Assembly: GCF_012222305.1 (NCBI RefSeq)
Contig: NZ_CP035730.1
Coordinates: forward strand, 620,001-684,000
DNA length: 64,000 bases
DNA from: Sulfolobus sp. S-194
Lineage (GTDB): Archaea; Thermoproteota; Thermoprotei_A; Sulfolobales; Sulfolobaceae
Direction of reading: 5' to 3'
The translations under genes were made by a program, and so were the position numbers. The notes below the pieces were generated by a model. It made no database searches. It was not told the DNA's origin and was given only the letters and a program-made list of their open reading frames with translations. Shown one piece after another: positions 27,329 through 47,016 of this stretch. Position 1 is the first letter of the stretch; the number at the start of each line of letters is the position of its first letter.

Positions 27329-28418
27329 TTTAGGTGCTATTTTATCTGGAGAGGAACTAGAATATAAAGAAAGAGTAAACATTGAAATAGATGATAATAA
27401 CAGAATTTTACATATCGGTAATGGTTATGATTCTTCTGCTAAAAATTTTAAAGAATTTATACTTGTTCCACCTCTTATAAATTTTCATACACACAGTGGA
27501 GATTTTACTTTCCCAGAAATAGGAATTGATAAAACTATTAAAGAATTAGTAGGAGATCCTCATAGTGAGAAATATAAATATTTCAAGTTATATAAAGATA
27601 AGGTCAATGAAGGAATTAGAGAATTTATTAGAAAATCTATTAATTTTGGAATAATAGGAATATTGGATTTCAGAGAAGAAGGAGTAGAAGGTGTGTTAAA
27701 AGCTAAAAAATCTATAGATTTAATCGACATTCATTATTTCTCTCTTGGTAGATTGGATAAATTTGATGAGAAGGAACTAGAAGCGTTAGCAAAAGTTGCA
27801 GAAGGATATGGACTTCCTAGTCCTAGTTATCATTCTAGAAAAGAATTAAATGTTATCAAAAATCACTTTGCTACAAAGATTAGAGCTATTCATTTTGCTG
27901 AGACAAAAAAGCAGTATTTAAGAGATAGCCTAGAAGAAATAATTGTAAGTTATTCTCCAAATCTTATAATTCATGGAACTCATTTTAGTATAAATGAATT
28001 TTATCTCTTGAAAAATGAGAAAATCCCTCTAGTTGTTTGTCCTAGAAGTAATTTATGGTTCGGTATAGGTATGCCTAATATTTCTGCAGCCTATGATGTT
28101 GGTGTTACTGTTTTTTATGGAAGCGATAATGGAAGCTGGATTTCGCCAAATTTGTGGAAAGACTTAGAATTAGCTCTTCTTATTACTAGAATACAGAAAC
28201 CAGGATCTAACTATGCAAGAGATATTTTATCTTCAGCTACTGTTAATGCATATAATTATCTTAGACTTGATTTTACAATAAAAGAAGGTAATAAAATATA
28301 TCCAGTTTTAATAAGAGGAGATGAGATTTTTAGAGCAAACGATAAGTTTGTTGCAATAATTAAAAGAGCTTCAGATAATGGGATTTATAGTCTTGGTGCT
28401 ATCCAGAATATAAGTTGA
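27309..28418 (+). CDS. amidohydrolase-superfamily deaminase-like protein in the riboflavin operon
   Basis: A 369-residue metal-dependent amidohydrolase with the mononuclear deaminase signature: HxH in INFHTHSGDF, His-x-x-Glu in IHFAETK, a further His in IIHGTHFSI, and the late Asp in VFYGSDNGSW. These resemble guanine/cytosine/SAH-type deaminases rather than dinuclear hydrolases. It starts with TTG inside the GTP cyclohydrolase III gene and is the last gene of the operon. Archaeal riboflavin synthesis needs a pyrimidine deaminase, so this is a candidate for that step by context; the substrate is inferred. It overlaps the convergent PCNA1 gene by 34 nt. Confidence 0.75.
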   Translation: MSTLKINLGAILSGEELEYKERVNIEIDDNNRILHIGNGYDSSAKNFKEFILVPPLINFHTHSGDFTFPEIGIDKTIKELVGDPHSEKYKYFKLYKDKVNEGIREFIRKSINFGIIGILDFREEGVEGVLKAKKSIDLIDIHYFSLGRLDKFDEKELEALAKVAEGYGLPSPSYHSRKELNVIKNHFATKIRAIHFAETKKQYLRDSLEEIIVSYSPNLIIHGTHFSINEFYLLKNEKIPLVVCPRSNLWFGIGMPNISAAYDVGVTVFYGSDNGSWISPNLWKDLELALLITRIQKPGSNYARDILSSATVNAYNYLRLDFTIKEGNKIYPVLIRGDEIFRANDKFVAIIKRASDNGIYSLGAIQNIS

Positions 28419-29131
28419 CCACCGGAATCTGTAGGTACCTCAATTTTCATAGGTATGTTATTTCCAAATCCTAGAGTTACATTTTGAGATATGGAAGTTA
28501 CTTTAAATACATCTTTTAGAACTTCTATGCTATATACTGCCTTTGAAGGAGATTCTATGTTTAATGATTTAAGGGGCTTATCTTGCCTTAATAAGGACTT
28601 ATATCTTCTGCCAGCCTCCTCTGTGAAGAGAGTAACAGTGTTTTCATCTGCAGATATTTCAACTTCCTCACCTACTAAACTTAAATCTCTAGCAATATCT
28701 TTTAGTACATCTCCATCAGTTGTAAATGTTACACTTAGGTTTACCTTAGGTTCTGTTAATTGATCTACTGAAGTTTTTTCTCCTTTTATATAGATATTGC
28801 TTCTAGTTCCTGTTTTCTCATCTCTAACAGTAACTTTTAGGCCAGCATCAGTCTCTTCTAAAGTAACTGTTGCACTTTTAGTTTTAGCCTTTCCAAGAAT
28901 TTTCTTCAAATCATTTATATTAATTTTAATTCCAAGCGGTTTGTCAATTGTATAATCTTCTAGGTATTCTTTTGGAATTTTAAATATAACCATGACTACT
29001 TTATCATCTGTCAAATATCTTGAAAAAATACTGTCTTCAGTAAAGTTTAAAATTATTTCATCCGTAACCTTAAGTAGACCAGATAACAAGGAGTAAAAAT
29101 CTTTCGCACTTGAATATGTCGCTTTAATCAT
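28385..29131 (-). CDS. pcn1: DNA polymerase sliding clamp, PCNA1-like
   Basis: This subunit of the heterotrimeric clamp starts MIKATYSSAKDFYSLLSGL and ends GGQLIFWIAPRL, with IILNFTEDSIFSRYLTDDK early on. All match S. solfataricus PCNA1 as recalled. In that species PCNA1 carries the partner site for FEN1. The length of 248 residues is normal. The ATG overlaps the stop of rpo13 (ATGA), so clamp and polymerase subunit are made from one message. Confidence 0.93.
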   Translation of the reverse strand: MIKATYSSAKDFYSLLSGLLKVTDEIILNFTEDSIFSRYLTDDKVVMVIFKIPKEYLEDYTIDKPLGIKININDLKKILGKAKTKSATVTLEETDAGLKVTVRDEKTGTRSNIYIKGEKTSVDQLTEPKVNLSVTFTTDGDVLKDIARDLSLVGEEVEISADENTVTLFTEEAGRRYKSLLRQDKPLKSLNIESPSKAVYSIEVLKDVFKVTSISQNVTLGFGNNIPMKIEVPTDSGGQLIFWIAPRL

Positions 29132-29469
29132 TCTTCCTCATTTGTTTTTTGTTCTTTTACTTTTTTAGTCTTTTTTGCTACTTTCTTCCTTTTCTTCTTA
29201 TCAGAGGAAGAATAATGGGAGGCTAATTCTTTAAACATTTTCTTTGCTTCTTCAATGCTTATTTTCCCATTAAGTAAATTATCCCATATTTCAGTATTTT
29301 TCATTAATAGTTCTATGTCAGCTACACTTAGTGCTGGCAGTTCTTCTTCTTCGCTTTCGGCTTCCACTTTCTCCTCGTGCTCTTCTTTTTGTGTTAATTC
29401 TTCTTCGCTTTCGGCTTCAGTGGATTCCTCTTCTTCATTCTCTTTCTCATTCTCTTCCTCATCAAACAT
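29128..29469 (-). CDS. rpo13: RNA polymerase subunit Rpo13
   Basis: Rpo13 is found in Sulfolobales and relatives; it sits in the polymerase cleft near the downstream DNA. The protein has the three expected parts. An acidic N-terminus (residues 1-45, nearly all Glu) is followed by the conserved helix-turn-helix core LSVADIELLMKNTEIWDNLL and GKISIEEAKKMF, then a Lys-rich tail KKRKKVAKKTKKVKEQK. The acidic part is encoded by two copies of a block of about 20 bp (from 29343 and 29399), so it has grown by duplication. A GGGGGA lies upstream of the start. Confidence 0.9.
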   Translation of the reverse strand: MFDEEENEKENEEEESTEAESEEELTQKEEHEEKVEAESEEEELPALSVADIELLMKNTEIWDNLLNGKISIEEAKKMFKELASHYSSSDKKKRKKVAKKTKKVKEQKTNEEE

Positions 29470-29480
29470 TATAATCCCCC

Positions 29481-31142
29481 TTATGTCAAGTTTAGTAGAT
29501 ATATTTCACCCCTTAATAAATCTCTAGTCACGCAATACCCCCTCGGTAATTTTTGTAATGTTTCATAAATTGTAGCGTATAACTGAGCATCAGAACCTCC
29601 AAACAATTTACTCGCATAGTCTAGTTCTTTGGGTTCAACTAAATTGAATATAAAAAAGTAACTTGTATTAGCAAGTAGTTCCTTGATGTATTCACTCGTT
29701 TGAGAAATTATTATAAATCCAAATCCAAATTTTCTTCCTTCTGCAAATAATCGTTCCAATATTTGTTTACCAGATTCTTTAGATAAGATAAAAGGAGCTT
29801 CATCTATAATAATTATTTTCTTTAAATTTGATATACCAGAAATATACATCGTATTTTGAATAGATTTTAATAATGTTTCTATTAAAATGTATTTTATCTC
29901 ATTAGTAGGTATTTTAGAAAAATCTATAATTAGATTATTTTCTAAAATCTCTGAAATATTCACATTTGAATTATTGAAAATTGATGATGTTAGAAACTGA
30001 ATATAGGGTTCTATTGATTGATATTTTATTATATCTTGACTTGTAGTAGCTAGTTTTTTCTTTTTTTCCAAAAGAATTAAAATATCCCTGAAAGTTGGTG
30101 GCGATAAATTCCATGTACTACTATCATTTTCATCTATTCCTTTTTCTGCATAAGCTTCAATAATTAAGTTTGTTAGTTCAATAGTTTGTAAATTACCTAG
30201 ATTAAAAAGACTTTTTACCATCAATGAAATTTCTAAAGCCCTTTCTTTGGGACTTCTGCCAAATAAACTTAACGGATTTATTGTTACTTTAGAAGCATCA
30301 ATTTTCTTTGCTCTTTGGACTTCATATTCGCCATGTAAATCGAAAACTAAGTAAGATACGTTTAATGAATTCACAATCCTTTTTGCTAAAGTCGATTTTC
30401 CTACTCCACTAGTACCTATAATTATCACATTATAATTTTTACTAGAATTAAAATCTAGGTAATATATTCCATCAGTTCTGATCCACTTATACGTAGAATT
30501 CGAGGTATAAAATGCGTTATCTAATGAACTCCCCTTACCTATTTTTCCAATTATTTTTCCAATTAGGACTCCTTTGTTAGGCGGTTTATACGTTTTAGGA
30601 AAAATTAAGTAAGGTAATGTGATCCAATTAAATGTTATTAAGGGTAATTCATAATAAAATCCATAAAGTGAGATTGCTAGAGAGTCTAATAGACTTCCTA
30701 CTAAGAAGATAGGATTAAAGAATAATACCCAGTAGAGCACTAGTGATAGGCTAATGCCTATTATAAATTTTAAAAGTGAGAAACTAAATTTCACTTTTTT
30801 AAGTTCATCAATTAGGAAATCATAAAAATTTCGTTTTACGAAAGAGTAAATAAAGAATGCAACTAATGTAACTATTAGATAATATTCAGAATAATAGCTA
30901 ATTAGTAATAACATCTCATAAAAATTTAATCTATTAATTATACTATAAATGGAGAAAAACGATGGTAATGATATAATAGATAATAATACCGAATTAAATA
31001 AGATAAATGCCATTATACCATTAATAATAACTACTAATGCAGTTATAGATATAGAATATAATGAATTCTGTGTTATATCGATAAAATAAAGAATTATAGT
31101 CTCTAAAATGAGGACTGAAAGGAATATAATGTAAGACCTCAC
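29481..31142 (-). CDS. membrane-anchored HerA/VirB4-type ATPase, CedB candidate
   Basis: The first 180 residues hold several hydrophobic segments (for example YIIFLSVLILETIILYFI and LLLISYYSEYYLIVTLVAFF). A cytoplasmic HerA/VirB4-class ATPase domain follows, with Walker A GTSGVGKSTLAKR near residue 245 and Walker B IIIDEAPFIL near 430. A C-terminal FAEGRKFGFGFIIISQT block is also typical. This layout fits CedB, the ATPase of the Sulfolobales DNA-import system, but another membrane HerA paralogue cannot be excluded. It is the first gene of the unit with rpo13 and pcn1, 11 bases apart, and is divergent from the helicase. Confidence 0.65.
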   Translation of the reverse strand: MRSYIIFLSVLILETIILYFIDITQNSLYSISITALVVIINGIMAFILFNSVLLSIISLPSFFSIYSIINRLNFYEMLLLISYYSEYYLIVTLVAFFIYSFVKRNFYDFLIDELKKVKFSFSLLKFIIGISLSLVLYWVLFFNPIFLVGSLLDSLAISLYGFYYELPLITFNWITLPYLIFPKTYKPPNKGVLIGKIIGKIGKGSSLDNAFYTSNSTYKWIRTDGIYYLDFNSSKNYNVIIIGTSGVGKSTLAKRIVNSLNVSYLVFDLHGEYEVQRAKKIDASKVTINPLSLFGRSPKERALEISLMVKSLFNLGNLQTIELTNLIIEAYAEKGIDENDSSTWNLSPPTFRDILILLEKKKKLATTSQDIIKYQSIEPYIQFLTSSIFNNSNVNISEILENNLIIDFSKIPTNEIKYILIETLLKSIQNTMYISGISNLKKIIIIDEAPFILSKESGKQILERLFAEGRKFGFGFIIISQTSEYIKELLANTSYFFIFNLVEPKELDYASKLFGGSDAQLYATIYETLQKLPRGYCVTRDLLRGEIYLLNLT

Positions 31143-31178
31143 TTATATTAAACCCAAAATCTTAGTATTATTAGCTAA

Positions 31179-33914
31179 ATGATAAGTGTTTCTCACGATT
31201 TTGTAAATAAACTTAAGGAATTAGGATATACAAGTCTTACTCCAATACAAAAAGTAGCCATCCCTATAATTCTAAAGGGTAAAAATACTTTAGTTATAGC
31301 ACCTACAGGCTATGGAAAAACCGAGGCAGCTGTCTTTCCGGTATTTTACAAGATTTATACCGAAAATTCAGTTCCTATATCAGCATTATATATTACTCCA
31401 TTAAGAGCGTTAAACAGAGATATTGAGTTAAGATTAAAGAAGATAGGAGAAAAATTAGGTATTAAGGTTAAAGTAAGACATGGTGATTCGACCGAAAGTG
31501 AACGTAGAAGAATACTTCTTGATCCTCCACAACTTCTTTTAACAACTCCTGAAACTTTACTATATCTAGTAATAAATGAAAAATATCGAAAATTATTTGA
31601 AAAATTAAAATGGATTATAATTGACGAACTTCAAGAGATGTTAGATGAAAAAAGAGGATACGAATTATTAATTGTTTTAGAACGTTTAAAAAGAATAAGT
31701 AAGAATAGAATACAGTTTATAGGCTTGTCTGCAACTATTGGAAATATAGAAATAGCAAAAAAGTATTTAGGAGAAGAAGTAGAAGTGGCAAAAATTGATA
31801 CCAGAAAAGATATTGATATTTCATTAATAATTCCAGAATTAAAAAAGGAATATGTTGATTTATCCGTTAAGTTAGGATTAAATCCTGAGATAATAGCAAG
31901 ATTCAAAAAGATAGAAGAAATCGTTAAAAACGAGAAGCCTGTTTTAATTTTTACAAATGTTAGAGAAACAACAGAATTCCTAGCTAATGAACTTTCTAAA
32001 ATAACACAGCTTAAAATTTTGACTCATCATGGCTCATTATCTCGAGAAGTAAGAGTTGAAGCCGAAAAAGACTTTAGAGAAGGCAAAATTGATGCTTTAG
32101 TGGCTACGTCTAGTTTAGAGTTAGGAATAGACATAGGTAAAATTAATGTTGTAATACAATACATGTCTCCAAGACAAGTAATACGGCTCGTTCAGAGGAT
32201 TGGGAGAAGCGGACACTCTGTGAATAAATTATCTAAAGGCTATATAATGCCGTCAAATGATATATATGATATATTAGAATGTAAAGCCATTGTAGATAAA
32301 TTGAAGGAAGGATATCTTGAAAGACCACTAATAGAATATAAGCCTTATGATGTAATTGCTCATGAAATAGCCGGTATGGTCTTGGAAGGATATAGTAATC
32401 CTAGAGAGATATTTGATATAATAAGAGGTGTTTTCCTATTTAGTGATCTGACAGAAGAAGAATTTGCTGAAATACTTAATATCTTGGAATCTGCTAAAAT
32501 TATAAAAAGAGATAAAGATAAAATATCTCCTTCTTTCAGGCTTTGGAAGTATTATTATGAAACTAACATGATACCTGACTCGCTAAGAGACTACCTGGTT
32601 ATAGATCATATAACTAATTCTAAGATAGGTACTCTAGATGAAGAATTTATTTCCGCATTAGATGAAAATACAGTATTTGTTTTAGGTGGGAAACTTTGGA
32701 AAGTAGTTACTATTGAGGACGGAAAAATATATGTCGAACAAGCCCAATTAAAAAGCGGTATTTTACCTAGCTGGTTTGGAGAATCGATCCCAGTAGAAAA
32801 GGAGGTTGCATTAAAAGTATACGAGTACATAAACAGGGTAGCGAAAGGTGAAGAAATAGATTTACCTAGAGATGTGCTTGGTAAATTAAAGGATATTATA
32901 GATAATCAATTGAAAAGAGGATATCCTTTACCATCAGATAAAGAGATTTTAGTTGAAATAAATCATGACCTAATTGTAATTCATTCAGCTTTTGGAACCA
33001 GAGGAAATAATACATTAGGTGCAATTATTTCTGCTTTGCTTTCTCAAATAAAAGGAATAAAAGCTAATTATAGGTCTGATTCATATCACATAGCTATAGC
33101 AACTGTAATACCAGTATATAAAGATGATATTATAAAAATTATAAATATGATAAATTCATCACAAGAAAAAGATTTGGAGGAGTTATTAAAAATAGCAATA
33201 AAAGAAAGTCCTCAATTTAAATGGAAATTACTAATTGAAGCAGAAAGATTTGGAGTTATAGATAAGGGTAAAGATATTGATATTTCTTCTACATTATTAA
33301 GACCATTTATAGATACTATAGTTGGAGAAGAGGCAACTAAGGAGCTTATTGTTAAGAACTATGATTTAAGTATCTTATCAAACGAACTAAGAAAAGTGAG
33401 CTGGAAAATATTAGAAGTACCAAGTTTCTCACCTCTAGCCAAAGAGTTTTTAGATAAGCTTTTAGTTTTTCGTTCTAGTGAGGATAAACCGATCATGCTA
33501 GAGGTTTATAAAAGAAAATTATTATCAAAAGAGGTAAAACTTATCTGTATGGTTTGCGGATGGAATAGCAATTTTAATGTAAATCAGGTCCCTCCTAGAT
33601 GTCCAAAGTGTGGTTCTGTATTTTTGACAGTTGTTGATTTACGAGATGATGAAAGTATTCAAATAGTTAAAAAAGCAATAAAAGGAGAAAAAATGAGCAA
33701 AAAAGAACTAAAAAAACTAGAGGAATTGAAGAGAATTTCATCATTTTATTCTTACTATAATAAATATGTAGCAATCGGGCTTTCGGCCCCTGGAGTAGGT
33801 GTTACTAATATTAGTAAAGCGTTAGAAAAATTGAGAGAAGGAGAAGATAAGTATTATGAAGCGCTTTTAGATCTAGAGAGAAGGTTTATAAGGACTCGAA
33901 AATACTGGCACTAA
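31179..33914 (+). CDS. Lhr-family superfamily 2 helicase (aLhr2-like)
   Basis: A 911-residue ATP-dependent helicase. Motifs are the Q motif LTPIQKVAIP, Walker A APTGYGKTE near residue 45, motif II as DELQ (usually DEIH or DEVH), GLSATIGN, and motif VI QRIGRSGHS near 340. The winged-helix and Lhr-core regions follow. A C-terminal C4 zinc finger (CMVCGW and CPKCGS) lies near residue 790. Archaeal aLhr2 proteins act in nucleic acid unwinding or annealing and in RNA processing. The promoter region of 36 bp is shared with the divergent ATPase gene. Confidence 0.88.
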   Translation: MISVSHDFVNKLKELGYTSLTPIQKVAIPIILKGKNTLVIAPTGYGKTEAAVFPVFYKIYTENSVPISALYITPLRALNRDIELRLKKIGEKLGIKVKVRHGDSTESERRRILLDPPQLLLTTPETLLYLVINEKYRKLFEKLKWIIIDELQEMLDEKRGYELLIVLERLKRISKNRIQFIGLSATIGNIEIAKKYLGEEVEVAKIDTRKDIDISLIIPELKKEYVDLSVKLGLNPEIIARFKKIEEIVKNEKPVLIFTNVRETTEFLANELSKITQLKILTHHGSLSREVRVEAEKDFREGKIDALVATSSLELGIDIGKINVVIQYMSPRQVIRLVQRIGRSGHSVNKLSKGYIMPSNDIYDILECKAIVDKLKEGYLERPLIEYKPYDVIAHEIAGMVLEGYSNPREIFDIIRGVFLFSDLTEEEFAEILNILESAKIIKRDKDKISPSFRLWKYYYETNMIPDSLRDYLVIDHITNSKIGTLDEEFISALDENTVFVLGGKLWKVVTIEDGKIYVEQAQLKSGILPSWFGESIPVEKEVALKVYEYINRVAKGEEIDLPRDVLGKLKDIIDNQLKRGYPLPSDKEILVEINHDLIVIHSAFGTRGNNTLGAIISALLSQIKGIKANYRSDSYHIAIATVIPVYKDDIIKIINMINSSQEKDLEELLKIAIKESPQFKWKLLIEAERFGVIDKGKDIDISSTLLRPFIDTIVGEEATKELIVKNYDLSILSNELRKVSWKILEVPSFSPLAKEFLDKLLVFRSSEDKPIMLEVYKRKLLSKEVKLICMVCGWNSNFNVNQVPPRCPKCGSVFLTVVDLRDDESIQIVKKAIKGEKMSKKELKKLEELKRISSFYSYYNKYVAIGLSAPGVGVTNISKALEKLREGEDKYYEALLDLERRFIRTRKYWH

Positions 33915-38082: not shown

Positions 38083-38158
38083 GCGGCCGTAGTCTAGGCT
38101 GGATTAGGACGCCGGCCTCCCAAGCCGGTGATCCCGGGTTCAAATCCCGGCGGCCGCA
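38083..38158 (+). tRNA. tRNA-Gly(CCC), integration target
   Basis: The cloverleaf is complete: acceptor GCGGCCG/CGGCCGC, anticodon arm CCGGC-CTCCCAA-GCCGG with anticodon CCC, and T arm CCGGG-TTCAAAT-CCCGG; the discriminator is A. No intron and no encoded CCA. The 3' 44 bases are repeated at 44408-44451, which marks the insertion of the plasmid. The tRNA remains intact and functional at the left end. An AT-rich TTTTTATTC stands about 25 bases upstream as promoter. Confidence 0.95.
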
Positions 38159-38348
38159 TTAGGGGGATTCGTCCCCCTAATACCCCCTCTTTTTCTTTCA
38201 GATAAGTTTCCACAACGTCAGCTAAAGGACCAACATAAGTTTCCTTTACCTCACCGTTTATCGTTTCCAATTTATAGACATAATACCGCCCTTTTCTTTC
38301 ACGTAAAATATAATCGCCAAATTTATATCTACGTTGCTTATCCGTCAT
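38094..38348 (-). CDS. int(N): SSV-type integrase, N-terminal half
   Basis: The first 78 residues belong to the integrase: [20 protein letters not shown] to the tRNA-derived [15 protein letters not shown]. Integration separated it from the catalytic part at 43631-44452, and a stop codon within the tRNA gene ends the present frame at 84 residues. In the excised circle the two halves join in frame to a 336-residue protein, close to the length of SSV1 integrase as I recall. In the integrated state this fragment should be inactive. Its promoter region is described separately. Confidence 0.88.
38115..38158 (+). repeat. attL, 44-bp repeat within tRNA-Gly
   Basis: The left copy runs from the anticodon stem to the 3' end of the tRNA. 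It matches the right copy at 43 of 44 positions, differing at 38130 (G here, A at 44423). Confidence 0.93.
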
Positions 38349-38365
38349 TTCGCCTCAAGTATTAT

Positions 38366-38399
38366 GGTTGCCAATTCGCGTTTATAAGCTTTGGCAACC
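38366..38399 (-). promoter_or_regulatory. integrase promoter with an inverted repeat around the TATA box
   Basis: A TATA-like CTTATAAA (minus strand, 38381-38388) lies about 36 bases before the int(N) ATG, with GAGGCGAA in the leader. It sits inside a perfect 9-bp inverted repeat, GGTTGCCAA (38366-38374) and TTGGCAACC (38391-38399). An operator that overlaps the TATA box would let a repressor block integrase transcription. The RHH or AbrB-type proteins of the element are possible binders. Confidence 0.6.
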
Positions 38400-38408
38400 C
38401 GTAAAATT

Positions 38409-38446
38409 TTGCCGTCAAAAAGCGTTGAATTGAAAGAAGACGGCAA
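38409..38446. repeat. second inverted repeat near the integrase promoter
   Basis: Arms TTGCCGTC (38409-38416) and GACGGCAA (38439-38446) enclose 22 bases. It lies between the end of the 105-residue plasmid gene and the integrase promoter. It may be an extra operator or a hairpin ending the upstream message. The rest of the 155-bp gap shows nothing else. Confidence 0.45.
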
Positions 38447-38503
38447 AGATTCCTTAGCGACGCAAAAAATTGAATTTCGAAACCCACTGCAAAGTAGAAA
38501 AAT

Positions 38504-38821
38504 TCAAAGCGACTTAAGGAATTCTTCGCTAACTAAAAACTCACGCCCGTTACGTCGTATCAGATAATAAACGCCCGGCAAATATTTCCTACCATACGTA
38601 AAATACCCGTCGCCTTTTGTGACGCTAACGCCGTTCGTTTTCAGTTCGCCTTTCGTTGTAAGCCAAACCCAACCCACGATTTCATAGTCATCATCGCTCT
38701 TAATCACGCGGATTATTGGCGGGTCTACAGTACGGTCTATGTAACATTTCGCCTTTCTAAGACAATATTGTTGGTCGGGGTCATTAGGGTCGTATCGCTT
38801 TCCGTCATTTAGCGTTAACAT
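38504..38821 (-). CDS. plasmid protein of unknown function, 105 residues
   Basis: The ATG at 38821 (MLTLNDGKRYDPNDPDQQY) lies inside the 3' end of the helicase gene, which suggests coupled translation. A TTG at 38836 would extend it by five residues. The protein appears beta-rich and soluble (YEIVGWVWLTTKGELKT, YFTYGRKYLPGVYYLIRRNGREF). I do not recognise a family. Position directly after the helicase suggests a replication accessory role, but this is only inference. Confidence 0.6.
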   Translation of the reverse strand: MLTLNDGKRYDPNDPDQQYCLRKAKCYIDRTVDPPIIRVIKSDDDYEIVGWVWLTTKGELKTNGVSVTKGDGYFTYGRKYLPGVYYLIRRNGREFLVSEEFLKSL

Positions 38822-40856
38822 ACTCAACGCCGTCAATTACGTTGAATGTGACCAGGTCTTTCGCCTTTAACTTATCGATAATATCGTCGCCGAACCAACC
38901 CGTTAAGTCAGTAGTAAGCGTCCAACCATGTTCTTTCAAGTATTTATACGCCTCAGCAACGCTATCAGTTTCGCCGTCGCCTCTTGACATTCCGTTTCCG
39001 TCATTCCCTGACACGGCATTTCCCGTATCGACTCTTCCGTCAGCGTCAGAGCGAAATTTGCTATCAATCGCCCCTATCAGTTCGCCCTTATCGTCACGAA
39101 CTGTAACTACGCCCCCAACATTGTTGACCAACGCCTTAATTTGTCTACCTAACGGTGTTAGATACCATATGTAAGTCCTGTTGTCAGCCTTTTCACCCTC
39201 GACCAGACCCTTACGTTCTAAGTTCTTCAGCACGTTAATCGCGTACTGCTTAGACACCTTCAGCTTATCCGCGACCTCAGAAGACTTTAGCCCGCTATCG
39301 TCCGGTAACGCCTCTATGAACTCTACGTCACGTTCTGACAGACCTAAGCCGTTATATAGTAGGTCTAACTGGAAGTTTTCCGAAACGAAATACCAATCAT
39401 CTAATGTTGCCTCGGTCCTTCCACGCATTATCGCGGTCACGATTATTAAGTTACGGGCGACTTCCACAGTACGGTTTAACGGCTCTCTAGTGTACTCCTT
39501 TAGTTTCCTCATGAAGTTAATTACCGCATTCGTTACGTCTTCCGGTATCTTAGCGTATGCCGGTCTAGTTAATAACCACACTTTGAATACCATGGCGTCA
39601 ACTTGATCAACGTCGTTCTTACCCCTATTCATTATAGCCTTCCATATCTTATCCTCTACGCTCTGGTCAGTCCTCACGTAAACTTTCAACATACGGTTAA
39701 AGATTTGCTCTTTGTCAACGTCAATAGTATCTACAACGGACGTAGTTATTACCGCGGGCTGACCCTCAATACACCTAGTACGGCTAACTAAATGCTCTTC
39801 ACCGTCTTCACCAACCGCTTTTTCCGTCACCGTAGTACAGACTTTCTCTTCCGTCATTAGTTCGCGTAAATAGTTCATGTTTTGGCGGTCTATTTGTTCG
39901 ATAAACAAGACGCGACCGTCGAACGTATCAATAGGCAAATAACCTAAAGCGTTCTGTGTAACCCTAGTTGAAGGTATAGCGATATCATCAGCGAACTTTA
40001 GCACGCTCTTAACCGTTGATGATTTACCCGTACCACTACCGCCAACTACCATAACGTGAATACGGCTCATTCCCATAACCCTTTCCATTCTCGTCGAGAC
40101 TAACGATAAGAACGTCAATAACTTCAGCCTATCGTACCCTACTATCTCTTTCGTACGCGACATTATCCAGGCTATGGGGTCTTTCTCGATTTCCGCCAAA
40201 CGGTCAGCGTACTTTTCGCGGACATAATCGGTCAGCGGTACCTCTTCCGGCGTTACGTACTCTTCTCTCAGTTCACTAATCTTAGCCATGATGTCCTTAC
40301 TTGACGGGCTATAATGTGTCGCTTTCGCTATCTCTTTAACCGCATCGCGACAGTCGTCAACGCATTCCTTCACTATACTCTTATATTTTAATATGAATTT
40401 GATTTGGCGGACGCGGGTTACCTTATCGCCCTCAATATACTCCTTAAATTGACCGGTATCGTAAACGTCAATAGTAACTTTACGCCCGTCCTCACTCTCA
40501 ACTACGTCGCGGTCTATGAGCCTAGCGGAAATTCTATTTTTCTCAGTTTCATGCGACTGAGATTTATTGGAATTGTCAACAGAAACCCCGGGGGATTCCC
40601 CGGTTTCCCCGGTTTCCCCGGGTCTATCCGGGGATTCCGGGGATTCACCCCCAATTTTTGTTGACGATTTCACTTTTTCGCGTTTGTCCGCAATTTTTTC
40701 AACACGTTCTTTTTTCTCATCTTCGGCGGAATTTTTTGAATTTTCGTTAGGGGCGTTCTGGCGACGTTTTTGATAGCGTTCCCACGCGTCTCTGATTAGT
40801 TTCTCTACTACTTCTTCCGGCAAATCCTTCAGCTTAGTTTTACCGTCAATCTTCAT
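38805..40856 (-). CDS. MCM-like AAA+ replicative helicase of the plasmid
   Basis: The 683-residue protein has a charged N-terminus with a Pro/Gly/Glu/Ser-rich linker (about residues 70-95). The ATPase domain has Walker A VGGSGTGKSS near 271, a Walker B-like LFIEQID near 313, a sensor region near VITTSVVDT, and an Arg-finger region QIFNRMLKVYVRTD like MCM LLSRFDLIF. A winged helix (LKSSEVADKLKVSKQYAINVLKNL) lies near 520-570. In MCM the Walker B is IDEFD; here Asp is Glu and the catalytic Glu is Gln. It is the probable replication protein of the element. No primase domain is visible, unlike pRN1 RepA. Confidence 0.75.
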   Translation of the reverse strand: MKIDGKTKLKDLPEEVVEKLIRDAWERYQKRRQNAPNENSKNSAEDEKKERVEKIADKREKVKSSTKIGGESPESPDRPGETGETGESPGVSVDNSNKSQSHETEKNRISARLIDRDVVESEDGRKVTIDVYDTGQFKEYIEGDKVTRVRQIKFILKYKSIVKECVDDCRDAVKEIAKATHYSPSSKDIMAKISELREEYVTPEEVPLTDYVREKYADRLAEIEKDPIAWIMSRTKEIVGYDRLKLLTFLSLVSTRMERVMGMSRIHVMVVGGSGTGKSSTVKSVLKFADDIAIPSTRVTQNALGYLPIDTFDGRVLFIEQIDRQNMNYLRELMTEEKVCTTVTEKAVGEDGEEHLVSRTRCIEGQPAVITTSVVDTIDVDKEQIFNRMLKVYVRTDQSVEDKIWKAIMNRGKNDVDQVDAMVFKVWLLTRPAYAKIPEDVTNAVINFMRKLKEYTREPLNRTVEVARNLIIVTAIMRGRTEATLDDWYFVSENFQLDLLYNGLGLSERDVEFIEALPDDSGLKSSEVADKLKVSKQYAINVLKNLERKGLVEGEKADNRTYIWYLTPLGRQIKALVNNVGGVVTVRDDKGELIGAIDSKFRSDADGRVDTGNAVSGNDGNGMSRGDGETDSVAEAYKYLKEHGWTLTTDLTGWFGDDIIDKLKAKDLVTFNVIDGVEYVNAK
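40585..40653. repeat. G+C-rich repeat tract inside the helicase gene
   Basis: About 70 bp made of short alternating units such as GGGGATTCC and CCGGTTTCC with CCCCGGGG palindromes. It encodes the GESPESPDRPGETGETGESP linker, so it may only be a low-complexity linker. Its composition is extreme for this genome, and iterons inside replication genes are known in plasmids, so a binding role is possible. Confidence 0.5.
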
Positions 40857-41241
40857 TACCGTTCACCTCTTCATTCATGAAGTCTTCAATATCGTCCGGG
40901 TTTTCGATTATCGCGTACATGTCAAGATAGTATAGTACCTTCCCGTCCTTCTCTTTCTTCTCACAGACTACGCCGATAATTTCGCCGTTATCTAACGCTT
41001 TCATAAAGTCCTTATCCTTCTCAACCACGCCCGGTAGTAGTAACGTCCCCCTACCCTCAGTATACTTTTTGCCGTTGAAGTCTTTGAACACGCCCGCGTA
41101 GATTTTGATAGGTACCGCTATGAACCCGCTCTTAGTCTTGTGCCAATCGTCTACCGCTTTGAATACTACCCTCTCGGACGCGATACGTAAAAAAATTCCG
41201 TTATCTTTAATATTTAGGTTTTTGTAATTGAACTTGGACAT
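40846..41241 (-). CDS. plasmid protein of unknown function, 131 residues
   Basis: This gene overlaps the helicase start by 11 nt and is upstream of it, so the two are coupled. The predicted protein is beta-rich, with IFLRIASERVVFKAVDD, FIAVPIKIYAGVFKDF and GTLLLPGVVEKDKDF. A compact beta-barrel such as an OB fold is imaginable, and an ssDNA-binding helper of the helicase would be plausible, but no motif supports this firmly. The C-terminus is acidic (DDIEDFMNEEVNGNED), as in many single-strand binding proteins. Confidence 0.6.
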   Translation of the reverse strand: MSKFNYKNLNIKDNGIFLRIASERVVFKAVDDWHKTKSGFIAVPIKIYAGVFKDFNGKKYTEGRGTLLLPGVVEKDKDFMKALDNGEIIGVVCEKKEKDGKVLYYLDMYAIIENPDDIEDFMNEEVNGNED

Positions 41242-41298
41242 AGCTATCCACCTACTTTTTTCCGATTACGTGACGAAACGAGAAAAAATCGGATTAAC

Positions 41299-41457
41299 TT
41301 ATGAAGACACCTCTACGCCTAATTCTTTTGCAAATTTCTTTAACGCAATCTTTACTACATCAGACTCTGAGATGTCGTACCTTTTTGCGATTTCCTTCAA
41401 TAGTCTCTTATCTTCTTCCCTTAAGCGGATATGGGCGAACGGTTTGTTTGACGCCAT
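41299..41457 (-). CDS. ribbon-helix-helix DNA-binding protein of the plasmid
   Basis: With the ATG at 41457 the protein is 52 residues, MASNKPFAHIRLREEDKRLL, then YDISESDVVKIALKKFAKEL. The strand AHIRL and the SESDVVKIALKKF helices fit the RHH fold, similar to CopG-like copy-number regulators of Sulfolobus plasmids. TTTATAAA at 41488-41497 predicts a transcript start near 41467, so the ATG at 41457 is preferred over those at 41478 and 41511. It stands just upstream of the replication genes, the usual place for a copy-control repressor. Confidence 0.72.
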   Translation of the reverse strand: MASNKPFAHIRLREEDKRLLKEIAKRYDISESDVVKIALKKFAKELGVEVSS

Positions 41458-41507
41458 GTTAGTCACGGGAATAAGCATAGTGTGAAACTTTATAAAGGGC
41501 CCCCGTT

Positions 41508-41762
41508 TCAAAATTTTCCAGAATCGGCTTTCAACAACACGCTTAATTTCTTCTTGTAATTCTTTTTAAGAATTTCCAAGATATCCTCTAAGTACTCGTC
41601 AATTATATCTTCTAGGTCTTGTTCGTCGAATTCGACCTCATCTACCGTGTATTCGTGATCAGCCTCATAATCGTCACAATAAACTACAGTTTCGCCAAAT
41701 TCTTTTTCCGCATAACACAGCTCTTCTATAGACCTACGACTTACGAAAACCGGTACTATCAT
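41508..41762 (-). CDS. acidic plasmid protein of unknown function, 84 residues
   Basis: The protein is strongly acidic in the middle (DEVEFDEQDLEDIIDEYLEDILEIL) with a basic end KKNYKKKLSVLLKADSGKF. No family is recognised and there is no membrane segment. It follows the 69-residue gene without a gap, so both are in one operon read from the promoter near 42310. Confidence 0.55.
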   Translation of the reverse strand: MIVPVFVSRRSIEELCYAEKEFGETVVYCDDYEADHEYTVDEVEFDEQDLEDIIDEYLEDILEILKKNYKKKLSVLLKADSGKF

Positions 41763-41972
41763 TTAGTTCACCTCAACGACTTCTAACTTATCGCTCTGTA
41801 GTCTCATCTTCACGCTGAACATTAACCTATCTTTCTCATAAACCTTAACGAGTACCGTGCTATCGTTAATTATGAAGTAGTCGTAGTAGTCGTAAGCCCT
41901 CATGTGGTCATTTAGCGTGTTTTCTATCAGCTCTTCTACGTTATCCCAATCGGTATGAAGTAGGCTCTTCAT
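41763..41972 (-). CDS. plasmid protein of unknown function, 69 residues
   Basis: This small soluble protein starts MKSLLHTDWDNVEELIENTL and has a two-strand region YDYFIINDSTVLVKVYEKD. No motif is recognised. Its ATG overlaps the stop of the upstream gene by four bases, and its stop touches the next gene, which supports coupled expression. Confidence 0.55.
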   Translation of the reverse strand: MKSLLHTDWDNVEELIENTLNDHMRAYDYYDYFIINDSTVLVKVYEKDRLMFSVKMRLQSDKLEVVEVN

Positions 41973-42277
41973 AACTCTCTCACCTGGGATACCCCTAAGA
42001 CCCCACTCCTATTCTCGTAAATCCTATCTACGATTTCCTTCATTTCGGGGTAGTTCTCGTTCAGAAAGCTCATGAACTTCTCAGCCTCAACGTCGTTTTG
42101 CGGTCTCAGTAATACAAACGCCTTAGCTAAGTACTCTACGTCGACTTCCGCATCTGGAATATCCGCTTTAACCCTCTCGTAGAACGTCTTCACGGCTTTG
42201 ACGGCTGAAGGAGTTAGGTAAAAAACAGACTCGTTTACCTTAACCCAATTATCCCCGAATTGGATTTGCGTGGACAT
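41969..42277 (-). CDS. plasmid protein of unknown function, 102 residues
   Basis: I chose the ATG at 42277 (MSTQIQFGDNWVKVNESVF). It lies about 35 bases from a TATA-like GTTTAAATATG near 42313, whereas longer starts up to 42334 would begin upstream of this promoter. The protein is mainly helical after residue 20. No family is recognised. It is the first gene of a minus-strand operon and is divergent from the AbrB-like gene, so the 90-bp gap carries promoters for both directions. Confidence 0.58.
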   Translation of the reverse strand: MSTQIQFGDNWVKVNESVFYLTPSAVKAVKTFYERVKADIPDAEVDVEYLAKAFVLLRPQNDVEAEKFMSFLNENYPEMKEIVDRIYENRSGVLGVSQVREL

Positions 42278-42337
42278 ATTCGCACGCCCAATTAAACAAT
42301 AGTTTACCCGCATATTTAAACTTTTCGCCCGCAATTT

Positions 42338-42350
42338 TTATATACTGGTT
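42338..42350 (+). promoter_or_regulatory. TATA box of the AbrB-like gene
   Basis: TTTTTATATACT lies about 24 bases before the ATG at 42368, so transcription should begin at or next to the start codon, giving a leaderless message. Confidence 0.6.
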
Positions 42351-42367
42351 CGTAAGAATATTAGTAC

Positions 42368-42544
42368 ATGAAACCGAGAGTTCATAAGGGCGGTAAGCCT
42401 GGACAAGAAACCTACTACCTCAACATACCGCGTGAAATCGTTACATCACTCGATATAAAACCAGATGATGAGTTTGAGCTTAAAGTTGAAACCAAAGACG
42501 GTGAAATAACCCTATGCTATAAAAGGGTTAAGAAAGCCACATGA
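42368..42544 (+). CDS. AbrB/SpoVT-type DNA-binding protein of the plasmid
   Basis: The 58-residue protein starts MKPRVHKGGKPGQETYYLNI and continues PREIVTSLDIKPDDEFELKV and EITLCYKRVKKAT. The pattern strand-IPREIVxxLxIKPxDEFEL-strand is the swapped-hairpin AbrB/MazE fold that binds DNA as a dimer. It is the only clear plus-strand gene of the element. It is probably a regulator of the divergent operon or an antitoxin-like protein; no toxin gene is recognised next to it. Confidence 0.78.
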   Translation: MKPRVHKGGKPGQETYYLNIPREIVTSLDIKPDDEFELKVETKDGEITLCYKRVKKAT

Positions 42545-42591
42545 TTTTTTCTCGTAAATCTATTAACATGGGACGATAACGCGACGATAAT

Positions 42592-42693
42592 AACTCCTTA
42601 AATCTATTGACAAATGTTAAGAGATCTCTAAATGCGGGGCGATAATAGTGAAGAGTGAGAACTCCTTAAATCTCTTGAGAAAAATTAAGAGAA
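42592..42693. repeat. iteron-like direct repeats, candidate plasmid origin
   Basis: Two copies of about 34 bp start with AACTCCTTAAATCT at 42592 and 42660, share TTGA and TTAAGAGA further on, and are 68 bp apart. A shorter relative (TAAATCTATT) lies at 42555. CGATAA motifs recur at 42574, 42584 and 42640. The 160-bp gap between two genes on opposite strands has no ORF. Repeats like these are used as replication-protein or repressor sites in plasmids. Confidence 0.55.
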
Positions 42694-42705
42694 TAGAGAA
42701 AAGCT

Positions 42706-43308
42706 CTACTCCTCACTGCAAATTATCCTCTTCCCCTCAACACGAAAGCCCTTTCTTCCGCATTCTTCCAAATACTTTAATTGCTCACACGCTTCCTCAT
42801 CACCCTCATCGCACTGCTCTTGTAGACTATCTTCAGCCTCTGCAAATATTGCAATTTGCTTAAGCTCTTGCCGTGCTTTGTAAGCCTTCTTTGGGTTCCT
42901 AACTTCCGGCGGTACACAAATAGTGTAAGCCATGTCTATGAAGCGGTTCAGCTTCTTCCTCTGAGCCTCTAACTCCTTAATGCGTTTATGAATCTCGAAA
43001 TACTCGTTCACGAGTTGAGCTAATTCGGGGAAGTTACGCTCTAAGTTATAGTCCTTACCCCTTTCCAGTGAGCGGAATATTGGGTAGCGGTAATTCTTCA
43101 CTCTCTTTCTCGTAATGTAACCCTCACCGTACTCCTTCTTCAACTCGTCTTGAGCCTTACTAATCACCATCTTCAGATAATCACGCCGTGCTTTTGCCTT
43201 CTCTAACTCCTCAATCACTTTGAGTAAGCCCGCGAAAGCCTCTAACGATTTGTCACAGATGGGGTTATGATAATTGCCTTTATCATCAACTGGCGTTACG
43301 CTCACCAT
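42706..43308 (-). CDS. plasmid coiled-coil protein of unknown function
   Basis: With the ATG at 43308 the protein is 200 residues. It has two long charged helices (LLKVIEELEKAKARRDYLKM and YFEIHKRIKELEAQRKKLNR) predicted as coiled coil. A Cys- and Glu-rich tail (CDEGDEEACEQLKYLEECGRK) has four or five Cys that could bind metal. A start at 43329 adds seven residues. No family is recognised. It is separated from the downstream operon by the repeat region, so it has its own promoter. Confidence 0.6.
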   Translation of the reverse strand: MVSVTPVDDKGNYHNPICDKSLEAFAGLLKVIEELEKAKARRDYLKMVISKAQDELKKEYGEGYITRKRVKNYRYPIFRSLERGKDYNLERNFPELAQLVNEYFEIHKRIKELEAQRKKLNRFIDMAYTICVPPEVRNPKKAYKARQELKQIAIFAEAEDSLQEQCDEGDEEACEQLKYLEECGRKGFRVEGKRIICSEE

Positions 43309-43376
43309 TACAAATATTTCCAAATTCAAGTTAATAAATTAGCACTATTATTGAGAGAAATCACCCGTATCAACTA

Positions 43377-43399
43377 CCTAAAAGCACGTGCTTTTTAGG
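43377..43399. repeat. 16-bp palindrome in a plasmid intergenic region
   Basis: AAAAGCACGTGCTTTT (43380-43395) is a perfect palindrome, and CCT/AGG extend it with one extra T. It stands 4 bp before the large hairpin. It could be an operator for a dimeric regulator. Confidence 0.5.
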
Positions 43400-43402
43400 C
43401 GG

Positions 43403-43445
43403 GATAGTAGTGGGGGTGTGGGGGTGTCCCCCACTAAGCACTATC
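43403..43445. repeat. G-rich hairpin, candidate replication or termination site
   Basis: GATAGT plus AGTGGGGG (43403-43416) pair with CCCCCACT (43428-43435) and ACTATC (43440-43445), with an AAGC bulge and a TGTGGGGGTGT loop. The 14-bp stem is unusually stable for this AT-rich genome. Single-strand origins and rolling-circle nick sites of plasmids form such structures; a terminator is the other option. Confidence 0.5.
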
Positions 43446-43472
43446 TCAAAAACGTTAGGTACTTGATACTTT

Positions 43473-43607
43473 TCACGGCTCTTCCTCACTCTTACCGCGT
43501 ACCTTAACTGCAATATACACTATTAAGGCGATAAAGATGGGCCAAAAATTATGGCTGAATAGGGAAATTAGGAAGACCAACAGTAGTAGGAGTAAGCCCC
43601 ACCTCAT
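43473..43607 (-). CDS. small plasmid membrane protein, 44 residues
   Basis: The peptide MRWGLLLLLLVFLISLFSHN continues FWPIFIALIVYIAVKVRGKS and ends EEEP. Two short hydrophobic helices are separated by SHNFWP, with a charged tail. GGTGA lies four bases before the ATG, a clear Shine-Dalgarno. It is 23 bases behind the integrase stop, on the same strand, and so is made with the integrase when the circle is intact. No function is known. Confidence 0.6.
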   Translation of the reverse strand: MRWGLLLLLLVFLISLFSHNFWPIFIALIVYIAVKVRGKSEEEP

Positions 43608-43630
43608 TCTTTCACCATTTTGGGTAAAGT

Positions 43631-44452
43631 TTATTCCATTTTGGATAAGAATTCCGCGTACTTCTTGTATTCTTCTTTTGCAATTGCAAACATTGAAACG
43701 TAATGCTGAGTTAAGACACGTGAAGGCTTTCTTCCCTGAATGAAATCAATGATGTCAAAATTTATGCCTAGTTCCGCCATCTTAGACGCGACGAATTTGC
43801 GGAAGTACTTAATCGCTATCGCTTCCTCATTACGCCTCTCAAAATCCGCTATTGCCCCCCTGGTGATCTCAACGCGTCTTAACGGCGTTAAATGAAAGAC
43901 GTAGAATACGCCCTTATACCCGCGTTGCCATGACAGTGGATAATAACAAACCGAACCGTCGCATATATCACGTTCCGGTTCTTTCAGAACTTTCAGAATC
44001 TCAGATAATCTTGCACCTGATTCTAACGCTAGGCGATATACTAAATACACATTCTCGCTATAGTCTTTCGCTAAATTCAGCGTATGTTTTATTTCTTCTA
44101 AAGTTGGTATATACAAATCCGCGTTAGTCTTCTTTATCTTTACGACTTTTAGAACTTTATCCGCAAAATCTTCTGAAATTATATCGCGTGACGCTAAGAA
44201 TTTCGCAAATAATCTATACGCTTTTTGAGAATTCCTAGTTTCGCGGTACGACTTTTGTAACGCGGAAACGTATTCCTTTGCCGTTTTTTCACTAATCTTC
44301 CTTTCGCCCGTTAGCCAATCGTAAAACGCCTTTAAGTTGCCGGGCGTCGCGTACTGTCGTAAATTGGCAACCAACGCTATTTTACGTCGTTGGAAATCGC
44401 TTTTTCCGCCTCCCAAGCCGGTAATCCCGGGTTCAAATCCCGGCGGCCGCAA
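43631..44452 (-). CDS. int(C): SSV-type tyrosine integrase, C-terminal catalytic half
   Basis: After the tRNA-derived [15 protein letters not shown], the 258 residues of the core-binding and catalytic domains follow. Catalytic residues are Arg in [12 protein letters not shown], the HxxxR region in [11 protein letters not shown], and the nucleophilic Tyr in [10 protein letters not shown] preceded by [13 protein letters not shown]. The catalytic core looks intact. In the integrated state there is no native start or promoter (the frame opens with TTG in attR), so the gene is disrupted and excision depends on the N half being rejoined or on another integrase. Confidence 0.88.
44408..44451 (+). 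repeat. attR, 44-bp repeat of the tRNA-Gly 3' end
   Basis: The right copy lacks the 5' part of the tRNA and so is not a gene. It differs from attL only at 44423. It marks the right end of the integrated element. Confidence 0.93.
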
Positions 44453-45748: not shown

Positions 45749-45844
45749 ATGGGTGGAAGACAAAGAACAACTCTATTTATGACAAAAGAAGTAAAAAAAG
45801 AAGCTAAAAAAGGAGTTACTACACAACAAACTTCTCAAAAATAA
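45749..45844 (+). CDS. small basic protein, 31 residues, hypothetical
   Basis: MGGRQRTTLFMTKEVKKEAK then KGVTTQQTSQK is read from an ATG at 45749. The N-terminus recalls the basic tail of S25e (MGGASKKP), but there is no further homology that I can see. TATAAAGG near 45713 lies about 26 bases before a possible transcript start near 45739. The last 26 bases overlap the convergent cedA2-like gene. It may be a real small gene or chance. Confidence 0.4.
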   Translation: MGGRQRTTLFMTKEVKKEAKKGVTTQQTSQK

Positions 45845-45974
45845 ATCTTATTCCAAGTAGTATTGCTAAAGATAAGATAATCCCTGTAATTAGATATTCT
45901 ATATTTTTTGTATAGTAGTATACTATTGCTGAGTTAATTACTATGAGGAATGATACTACTTCATAGCTTTTCAT
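45819..45974 (-). CDS. cedA2: CedA2-like small membrane protein, 51 residues
   Basis: MKSYEVVSFLIVINSAIVYY then TKNIEYLITGIILSLAILLG and IRFIFEKFVV form two membrane helices with a short turn, the layout of CedA2. The identification rests on this and on its place five bases after the cedA-like gene, since in Sulfolobus cedA is flanked by two small two-helix proteins. Its role in the Ced channel is not known. The stop overlaps the small plus-strand gene. Confidence 0.65.
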   Translation of the reverse strand: MKSYEVVSFLIVINSAIVYYYTKNIEYLITGIILSLAILLGIRFIFEKFVV

Positions 45975-45979
45975 CTTTA

Positions 45980-46738
45980 TCACACTATATCAATTAAAAA
46001 TGGTACTCTACTTCCATAACCACCTATTGTATTTCCTAAACCAATGCTTAATCCGCTCAATAATATGATATAACTTGTGGGTGCGAGCAAATTGGCTATA
46101 AAAATCTCGGGGATTTCATATTGCAATACTATTGAGATATTAGGGGACGATGATAGGTGAATATTAAGAATATTTAGGTCCAATTGTGTAAGGAAAATAG
46201 GTAAATAGGGTAATCCTATATAAAATACTATTGAAGATGCTATAAATGAAGCACCTATAGCTCTACCTATCCTAAATGGTATTGCCATTAATAATATTCC
46301 CATGGCTATAAATAATCCAGAATATTGATATATCATTTGAGAGATTATAGTGAGAAATTCAATAAATGATGTAGCCATAGATAAGAGGAAAGTAAATAGC
46401 ATAAAAGGTGCAAAAGTACCAGAAACATATTGCATAGCATTAATAATTGCCTCTATAATCTCATATTGGATAATATCATAATTCTCCACTGCGTATAACC
46501 ACTGAAAATAAGAACTCCAAGATGCACCTAGTAGAGTTAATAATTGTTGCATAAGGCTTAAAACAACTGTATAAATTGTAATCCACACTACAATATAAAT
46601 AGAGTCTGTTATCATTCTTGGACCCCATTTCTTTACACCGTATACTGGTATAGGTAAGGCATAAAACAATGCTCCTAATGAGTAAGTGAGTGATGCTAGG
46701 ATTTGAGCATAAAATAGGAAGTCAAATATATTCCACAT
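45980..46738 (-). CDS. cedA: CedA-like polytopic membrane protein of the DNA-import system
   Basis: The 252-residue protein has about six or seven hydrophobic helices (for example DSIYIVVWITIYTVVLSLMQQ, FMLFTFLLSMATSFIEFLTI and AMGILLMAIPFRIGRAIGAS), no catalytic motif, and a C-terminus VPFLIDIV. This is the size and shape of CedA, the membrane channel component of the crenarchaeal exchange-of-DNA system, which resembles VirB6. It lies between two small two-helix proteins in the order cedA1-cedA-cedA2, behind cmk, an order I also recall from S. acidocaldarius. Confidence 0.78.
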   Translation of the reverse strand: MWNIFDFLFYAQILASLTYSLGALFYALPIPVYGVKKWGPRMITDSIYIVVWITIYTVVLSLMQQLLTLLGASWSSYFQWLYAVENYDIIQYEIIEAIINAMQYVSGTFAPFMLFTFLLSMATSFIEFLTIISQMIYQYSGLFIAMGILLMAIPFRIGRAIGASFIASSIVFYIGLPYLPIFLTQLDLNILNIHLSSSPNISIVLQYEIPEIFIANLLAPTSYIILLSGLSIGLGNTIGGYGSRVPFLIDIV

Positions 46739-46741
46739 TTT

Positions 46742-46975
46742 TTACACCTGTGATGCTATATAAGATATGAAATAGAATATAGTACTGCCTATAGCTAGAA
46801 AGAAAGCTGCAATTATTGCATCTTCTATGAGGTCTTGCCCCCCTCTTTTAATCCTGAAAATTGGAATTGGTGATCCTCGTAAAGCCCATCCTACTGCCCA
46901 AGCTAATACAAATATGCTCCATGCAACTTCAGTTATAGTACTATTTAGATTCTCAATGAAACTTAAGAGCGTCAT
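46742..46975 (-). CDS. cedA1: CedA1-like pilin/membrane subunit
   Basis: The 77-residue protein has a short N-terminal stretch, a first hydrophobic helix (AWSIFVLAWAVGWALRG), a basic loop (IFRIKRGGQDLIED), and a second hydrophobic helix (AIIAAFFLAIGSTIFYFISY). This is the VirB2-like conjugative pilin pattern reported for CedA1. It starts at a leaderless promoter, ends three bases before cedA, and follows cmk. The assignment is by layout and context rather than by a diagnostic motif. Confidence 0.72.
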   Translation of the reverse strand: MTLLSFIENLNSTITEVAWSIFVLAWAVGWALRGSPIPIFRIKRGGQDLIEDAIIAAFFLAIGSTIFYFISYIASQV

Positions 46976-46995
46976 TTTTGTTCAATTGTATTCCT

Positions 46996-47005
46996 CTTTT
47001 AATAA
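46996..47005 (-). promoter_or_regulatory. TATA box of the cedA1-cedA-cedA2 operon
   Basis: TTATTAAAAG (minus strand, centred near 47001) lies 26 bases before the cedA1 ATG, so the transcript would start on the start codon. A short inverted repeat (CTCTT near 46995, AAGAG near 47007) surrounds it. Confidence 0.5.
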
Positions 47006-47016
47006 CAAGAGAGGGA

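Follow-up and report, generated by a model that had tools for sequence, protein, structure and literature searches.

A predicted membrane ATPase family linked to the ced genes and separate from CedB and CedD is a candidate third motor of the Ced DNA-import system

The window analysed here, a stretch of 64,000 nucleotides from the chromosome of Sulfolobus sp. S-194, carries the three membrane-protein genes of a Ced DNA-import system and, at some distance, the gene of a putative membrane motor that, as judged from its sequence, belongs to a new ATPase family, linked to the ced genes and separate from both CedB and CedD. As an overall explanation of the region, a Ced trio accompanied by this ATPase as a third, separate motor has in our estimate about an even chance of being correct.

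The three ced genes all lie on the minus strand and are nearly contiguous, as the earlier note had read them. The first, cedA1 (46742..46975), encodes a two-helix, VirB2-like pilin of 77 aa and is followed after 3 bp by cedA (45980..46738), which encodes a VirB6-like, multi-pass channel protein of 252 aa. The third, cedA2 (45819..45974), starts 5 bp past cedA and encodes a two-helix membrane protein of 51 aa from its ATG, or 54 aa if an upstream GTG is used. The cedA1-cedA-cedA2 layout proposed in that note was confirmed with the NCBIfam equivalog models, against which CedA1 scored 129 bits (NF041797, cut-off 100), CedA 340 bits (NF041796, cut-off 330) and CedA2 105 bits (NF041798, cut-off 80). 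Moreover, the solved CedA1 pilin of Aeropyrum (8dfu) matched residues 3-74 of the window CedA1 with E=7e-21, and the N-terminus of the window CedA resembles CedA1. Pfam by itself picked up none of the three. As all three exceed curated family cut-offs, the trio is not a chance assembly, and these matches identify it almost certainly as cedA1, cedA and cedA2 of an ordinary Ced system of the kind already known. The leaderless promoter claimed for cedA1 also held up: the region ahead of the gene (46976..47016, minus strand) is consistent with one, having the TATA-like TTATTAAAAG ~21-30 bp before the ATG and an upstream box that extends into the end of a kinase gene. CedA proteins of Sulfolobaceae (~252-267 aa), that of the window (45980-46738) included, are without a ~200-aa region between the last helices that the CedA proteins of other families, at 450-490 aa, possess (L159:6040-7497, L174:13434-14879).

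The ATPase gene (29481..31142, minus strand; GTG start) encodes a protein of 553 aa whose motor is of the HerA/VirB4 type, as the earlier note had recognized, with matches to DUF87 (5.5e-10) and AAA_10 (5.5e-9). Several membrane helices are predicted in its N-terminal part (5-7 across the family), the P-loop begins at residue 243, and in a 35-member alignment of the family the Walker A residues, D268, H270, E272, E448 and R470-K471 are invariant. No NCBIfam equivalog covers the family, and a scan of named genomes with the ATPase returned only distant bacterial relatives. A single-sequence AlphaFold prediction reached a mean pLDDT of 42.5 and is unusable as a structure. A plasmid origin was considered and rejected, the best plasmid matches being partial and just ~25-34% identical.

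Directly downstream of the ATPase gene lies rpo13 (29128..29469, minus strand), encoding the RNA polymerase subunit Rpo13 (PF12136, 1.7e-18), which overlaps by 4 bp the PCNA gene (28385..29131, minus strand), identified by reading of the sequence and from the published account of rpo13-pcna (PMC2675907). On the other side, a gene for an aLhr1-type SF2 helicase (31179..33914, plus strand), named by position from SSO0394/Saci_0814, is divergent from the ATPase gene. The two starts are 36 bp apart (window 31142-31179), and therefore the promoters of the ATPase and aLhr1 overlap the opposite gene. As aLhr1 corresponds to SSO0394/Saci_0814/SiRe_1605 (PMC10003305) and Rpo13 to SSO0396/Saci_0816/ST0398 (PMC2675907), the ATPase should be, by position, SSO0395/Saci_0815/ST0397; a literature search for SSO0395, Saci_0815 and SiRe_1604 found no publication naming it. 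An integrated element of ~6.3 kb (window 38131-44451), with a 28-bp direct repeat at 38131-38158 and 44424-44451, occupies tRNA-Gly(CCC) and encodes an SSV-like integrase (phrog_5127, 3e-101) and an ATPase of its own (phrog_24043). Its insertion accounts for the wide gap between the window ATPase and the ced genes, 15 kb compared to 9.7-10.1 kb in close relatives, where the shorter distance suggests that the element is absent.

The ATPase family was detected in all 22 Sulfolobaceae genomes searched and, as likely true members, in 77 of the 147 genomes of the order, a count that omits three weak matches, at least two of them CedD. Its linkage to the ced genes is conserved: in families f4, f8 and f10, as well as in two families of a second order, PCNA-Rpo13-ATPase, the divergent aLhr1-type helicase and CedA1-CedA-CedB form one block, sometimes interrupted by extra genes, and homologues of the window aLhr1 stay beside the ATPase and CedA1 in relatives. 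The ATPase, Rpo13, CedA1, CedA and CedB genes are all co-directional in genome G029; in G094, an 82-bp interval separates the divergent ATPase and CedA1 genes. Within Sulfolobaceae, CedB is gone from the block, and 7 of the 22 genomes have the ced genes at 5-16 kb from the ATPase. Across the 30 genomes of known size, the distance between the ATPase and CedA1 was below 20 kb in 17, with ~2% expected for each and shared ancestry uncorrected. Presence of the two genes is also associated, the ATPase being found in 73/122 CedA1-positive and 4/25 CedA1-negative genomes (Fisher p=5e-5, from a hand tally uncorrected for relatedness). Eight near-closed genomes, in few contigs, lack CedA1 and the ATPase together and keep aLhr1 (G008, G009, G012, G019, G030, G041, G043 and G067); aLhr-type helicases are retained in the CedA1-negative genomes tested.

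An early and lasting association with ced genes in related archaea makes the ATPase a possible missing component of Ced. In the mechanism that we propose, the CedA1 pilin, the CedA channel and CedA2 would make up the Ced membrane complex of this Sulfolobaceae archaeon, which by homology would bring in chromosomal DNA of neighbouring cells as material for repair; the two established motors, CedB and CedD, are encoded at other chromosomal loci. To these the window ATPase would add a third motor, so far undescribed and of the HerA/FtsK superfamily, anchored in the membrane by its multi-helix N-terminal domain with the RecA-like motor toward the cytoplasm, and it would most likely act with Ced to pump DNA at the membrane, for instance as an accessory or export-side motor; topology, translocation and contact with Ced are all features that we infer. 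That the ATPase works with Ced, and is thus a candidate for its third motor, is a tentative proposal from sequence data to which we give somewhat less than an even chance. The more specific reading, in which it provides Ced with a missing third motor, such as an export or coupling ATPase, and belonged ancestrally with CedA1, CedA, CedB and aLhr1 to one transfer-and-repair locus, appears rather unlikely.

Several observations speak against a role with Ced. Families f3, f6 and f7 keep CedA1 without the ATPase (with one exception in f6), CedA1 was not found in four fragmented genomes that have the ATPase, and the ATPase lies far from the ced genes in about two thirds of Sulfolobaceae. Moreover, the A(N)TTTC damage motif (taken from PMC5817253), scored at positions -36 to -54 of Sulfolobaceae promoters, was present ahead of cedB in 12/22, cedD in 7/22 and cedA1 in 5/17, and ahead of the ATPase in 0/22. 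For the window genome this last argument is weaker, because in its genus the exact motif is absent from cedA1 promoters and mostly from those of cedB and cedD too. Sulfolobaceae promoters of cedA1, cedB and cedD have in common a CTC-rich box preceded by A(N)TTTC or ATTC, and the window genus carries ATTC...CTCTC variants in place of the exact hexamer. In family f3, aLhr1 stands directly ahead of CedA1-CedA (L249:3429-8111, L250:3482-9370), and at the L250 locus no ATPase gene stands in its usual place between Rpo13 and aLhr1, with aLhr1-CedA1-CedA retained.

The linkage itself may reflect hitch-hiking in an old block of PCNA, Rpo13 and aLhr1, and the strongest alternative, with a probability likewise somewhat below one half, is that the ATPase serves replication or repair as a chromosomal translocase, partner of these three proteins, its proximity to ced being inherited gene order only. 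Such a translocase would fit the near-contiguity of the ATPase, rpo13 and pcna on one strand, the motif-less promoter of the ATPase, the persistence of the aLhr1-ATPase pair at f2 and f6 loci with no ced genes nearby, and the sensitivity to UV and 4-NQO that follows deletion of aLhr1 (PMC10003305). However, a general replication factor would be expected to outlast the loss of Ced, and the eight near-closed genomes without CedA1 lack the ATPase despite keeping aLhr1. Because the evidence points both ways, with joint absence on one side and f3, f6, f7 and the motif-less promoters on the other, we present the role of the ATPase with Ced as a hypothesis.

A search of PDB profiles placed DptH (7es4, 1.5e-40) nearest to the ATPase among solved motors, ahead of HerA (6e-33) and VirB4 (4ag5, 6e-19), and returned no match to VirD4/TrwB; the Pfam family TrwB_AAD_bind matched weakly (0.0017), under its cut-off. 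DndH models matched at 3e-27, and in motor-domain trees the ATPase family groups with DptH. A defence motor related to DptH/DndH is nevertheless highly improbable, as no Sulfolobaceae genome searched lacks the ATPase, which occupies a conserved housekeeping locus, and the likeness is confined to the motor: the C-terminal end of the DptH/DndH profile alone matches, over ATPase residues ~231-488, and no full-length match including the N-terminal part of DptH was found.

The suggestion that the ATPase may be CedB was not borne out. It scored 40 bits against the CedB model (NF041017, cut-off 700), and a separate CedB of 604 aa (C1:433209-434978) scores 831 bits on the same chromosome, ~216 kb from the window ATPase. 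Likewise, a separate CedD (L011, near 562 kb) scores 618 bits (NF053655, cut-off 600), a model absent among the 25 families listed for the ATPase, and the NurA/HerA-type HerA of the genome is encoded at ~2.41 Mb (866 bits, cut-off 800). CedE, described as specific to Saccharolobus (PMC11868833), has no separate copy in the genome beyond CedA itself. In the phylogeny against CedB and other HerA paralogues that the note had called for, based on quick motor-domain trees with some long branches, CedB (support 97-99), CedD (95-96) and the ATPase family (96 for 45 of 47 rows) formed three separate groups, with the ATPase outside that of CedB; in one of the trees, two divergent rows assigned to the ATPase family fell outside its group. 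CedD is ruled out as the identity of the ATPase by its separate copy and tree group. A CedB identity, which a common HerA/VirB4 superfamily and the weak model match might suggest, can be practically dismissed given the second, full-scoring CedB, the separate tree group, several N-terminal helices compared to two in CedB, and the coexistence of both at one locus in other families; sequence comparison thus makes it almost certain that the window ATPase is a different protein. Of the uptake machine envisaged by the earlier note, the Ced trio stands and the motor as CedB does not; a wider link of the motor with Ced may hold, given the conserved ATPase-aLhr1-CedA1-CedA-CedB arrangement in other families of the order and in one further order.

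These results caution that a motor encoded near ced genes is not necessarily CedB. For archaeal chromosome exchange, a 2025 study ascribes the export of DNA by the donor cell to unknown ATPases (PMC11868833), and the window ATPase offers a candidate; as a conserved, ced-linked membrane motor in the genetically tractable Sulfolobales, it can be tested directly.

Compared to the published Ced system (CedA1, CedA, CedA2, CedB and CedD, with CedE in Saccharolobus), the window holds a trio that passes the family cut-offs, CedB and CedD lie elsewhere in the genome, and the ATPase would be an extra motor missing from the published descriptions of Ced consulted. HerA and CedD share its superfamily and DUF87 motor, yet form separate groups in the trees. 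The closest motor by both profile search and tree is that of DptH/DndH, although DptH bears a large unrelated N-terminal part where the window ATPase bears a multi-helix membrane domain. Finally, VirB4/TraC and VirD4 of type IV secretion are membrane-associated DNA-transfer motors, as we propose for the window ATPase, whose likeness to a VirD4-type coupling protein is one of architecture only.
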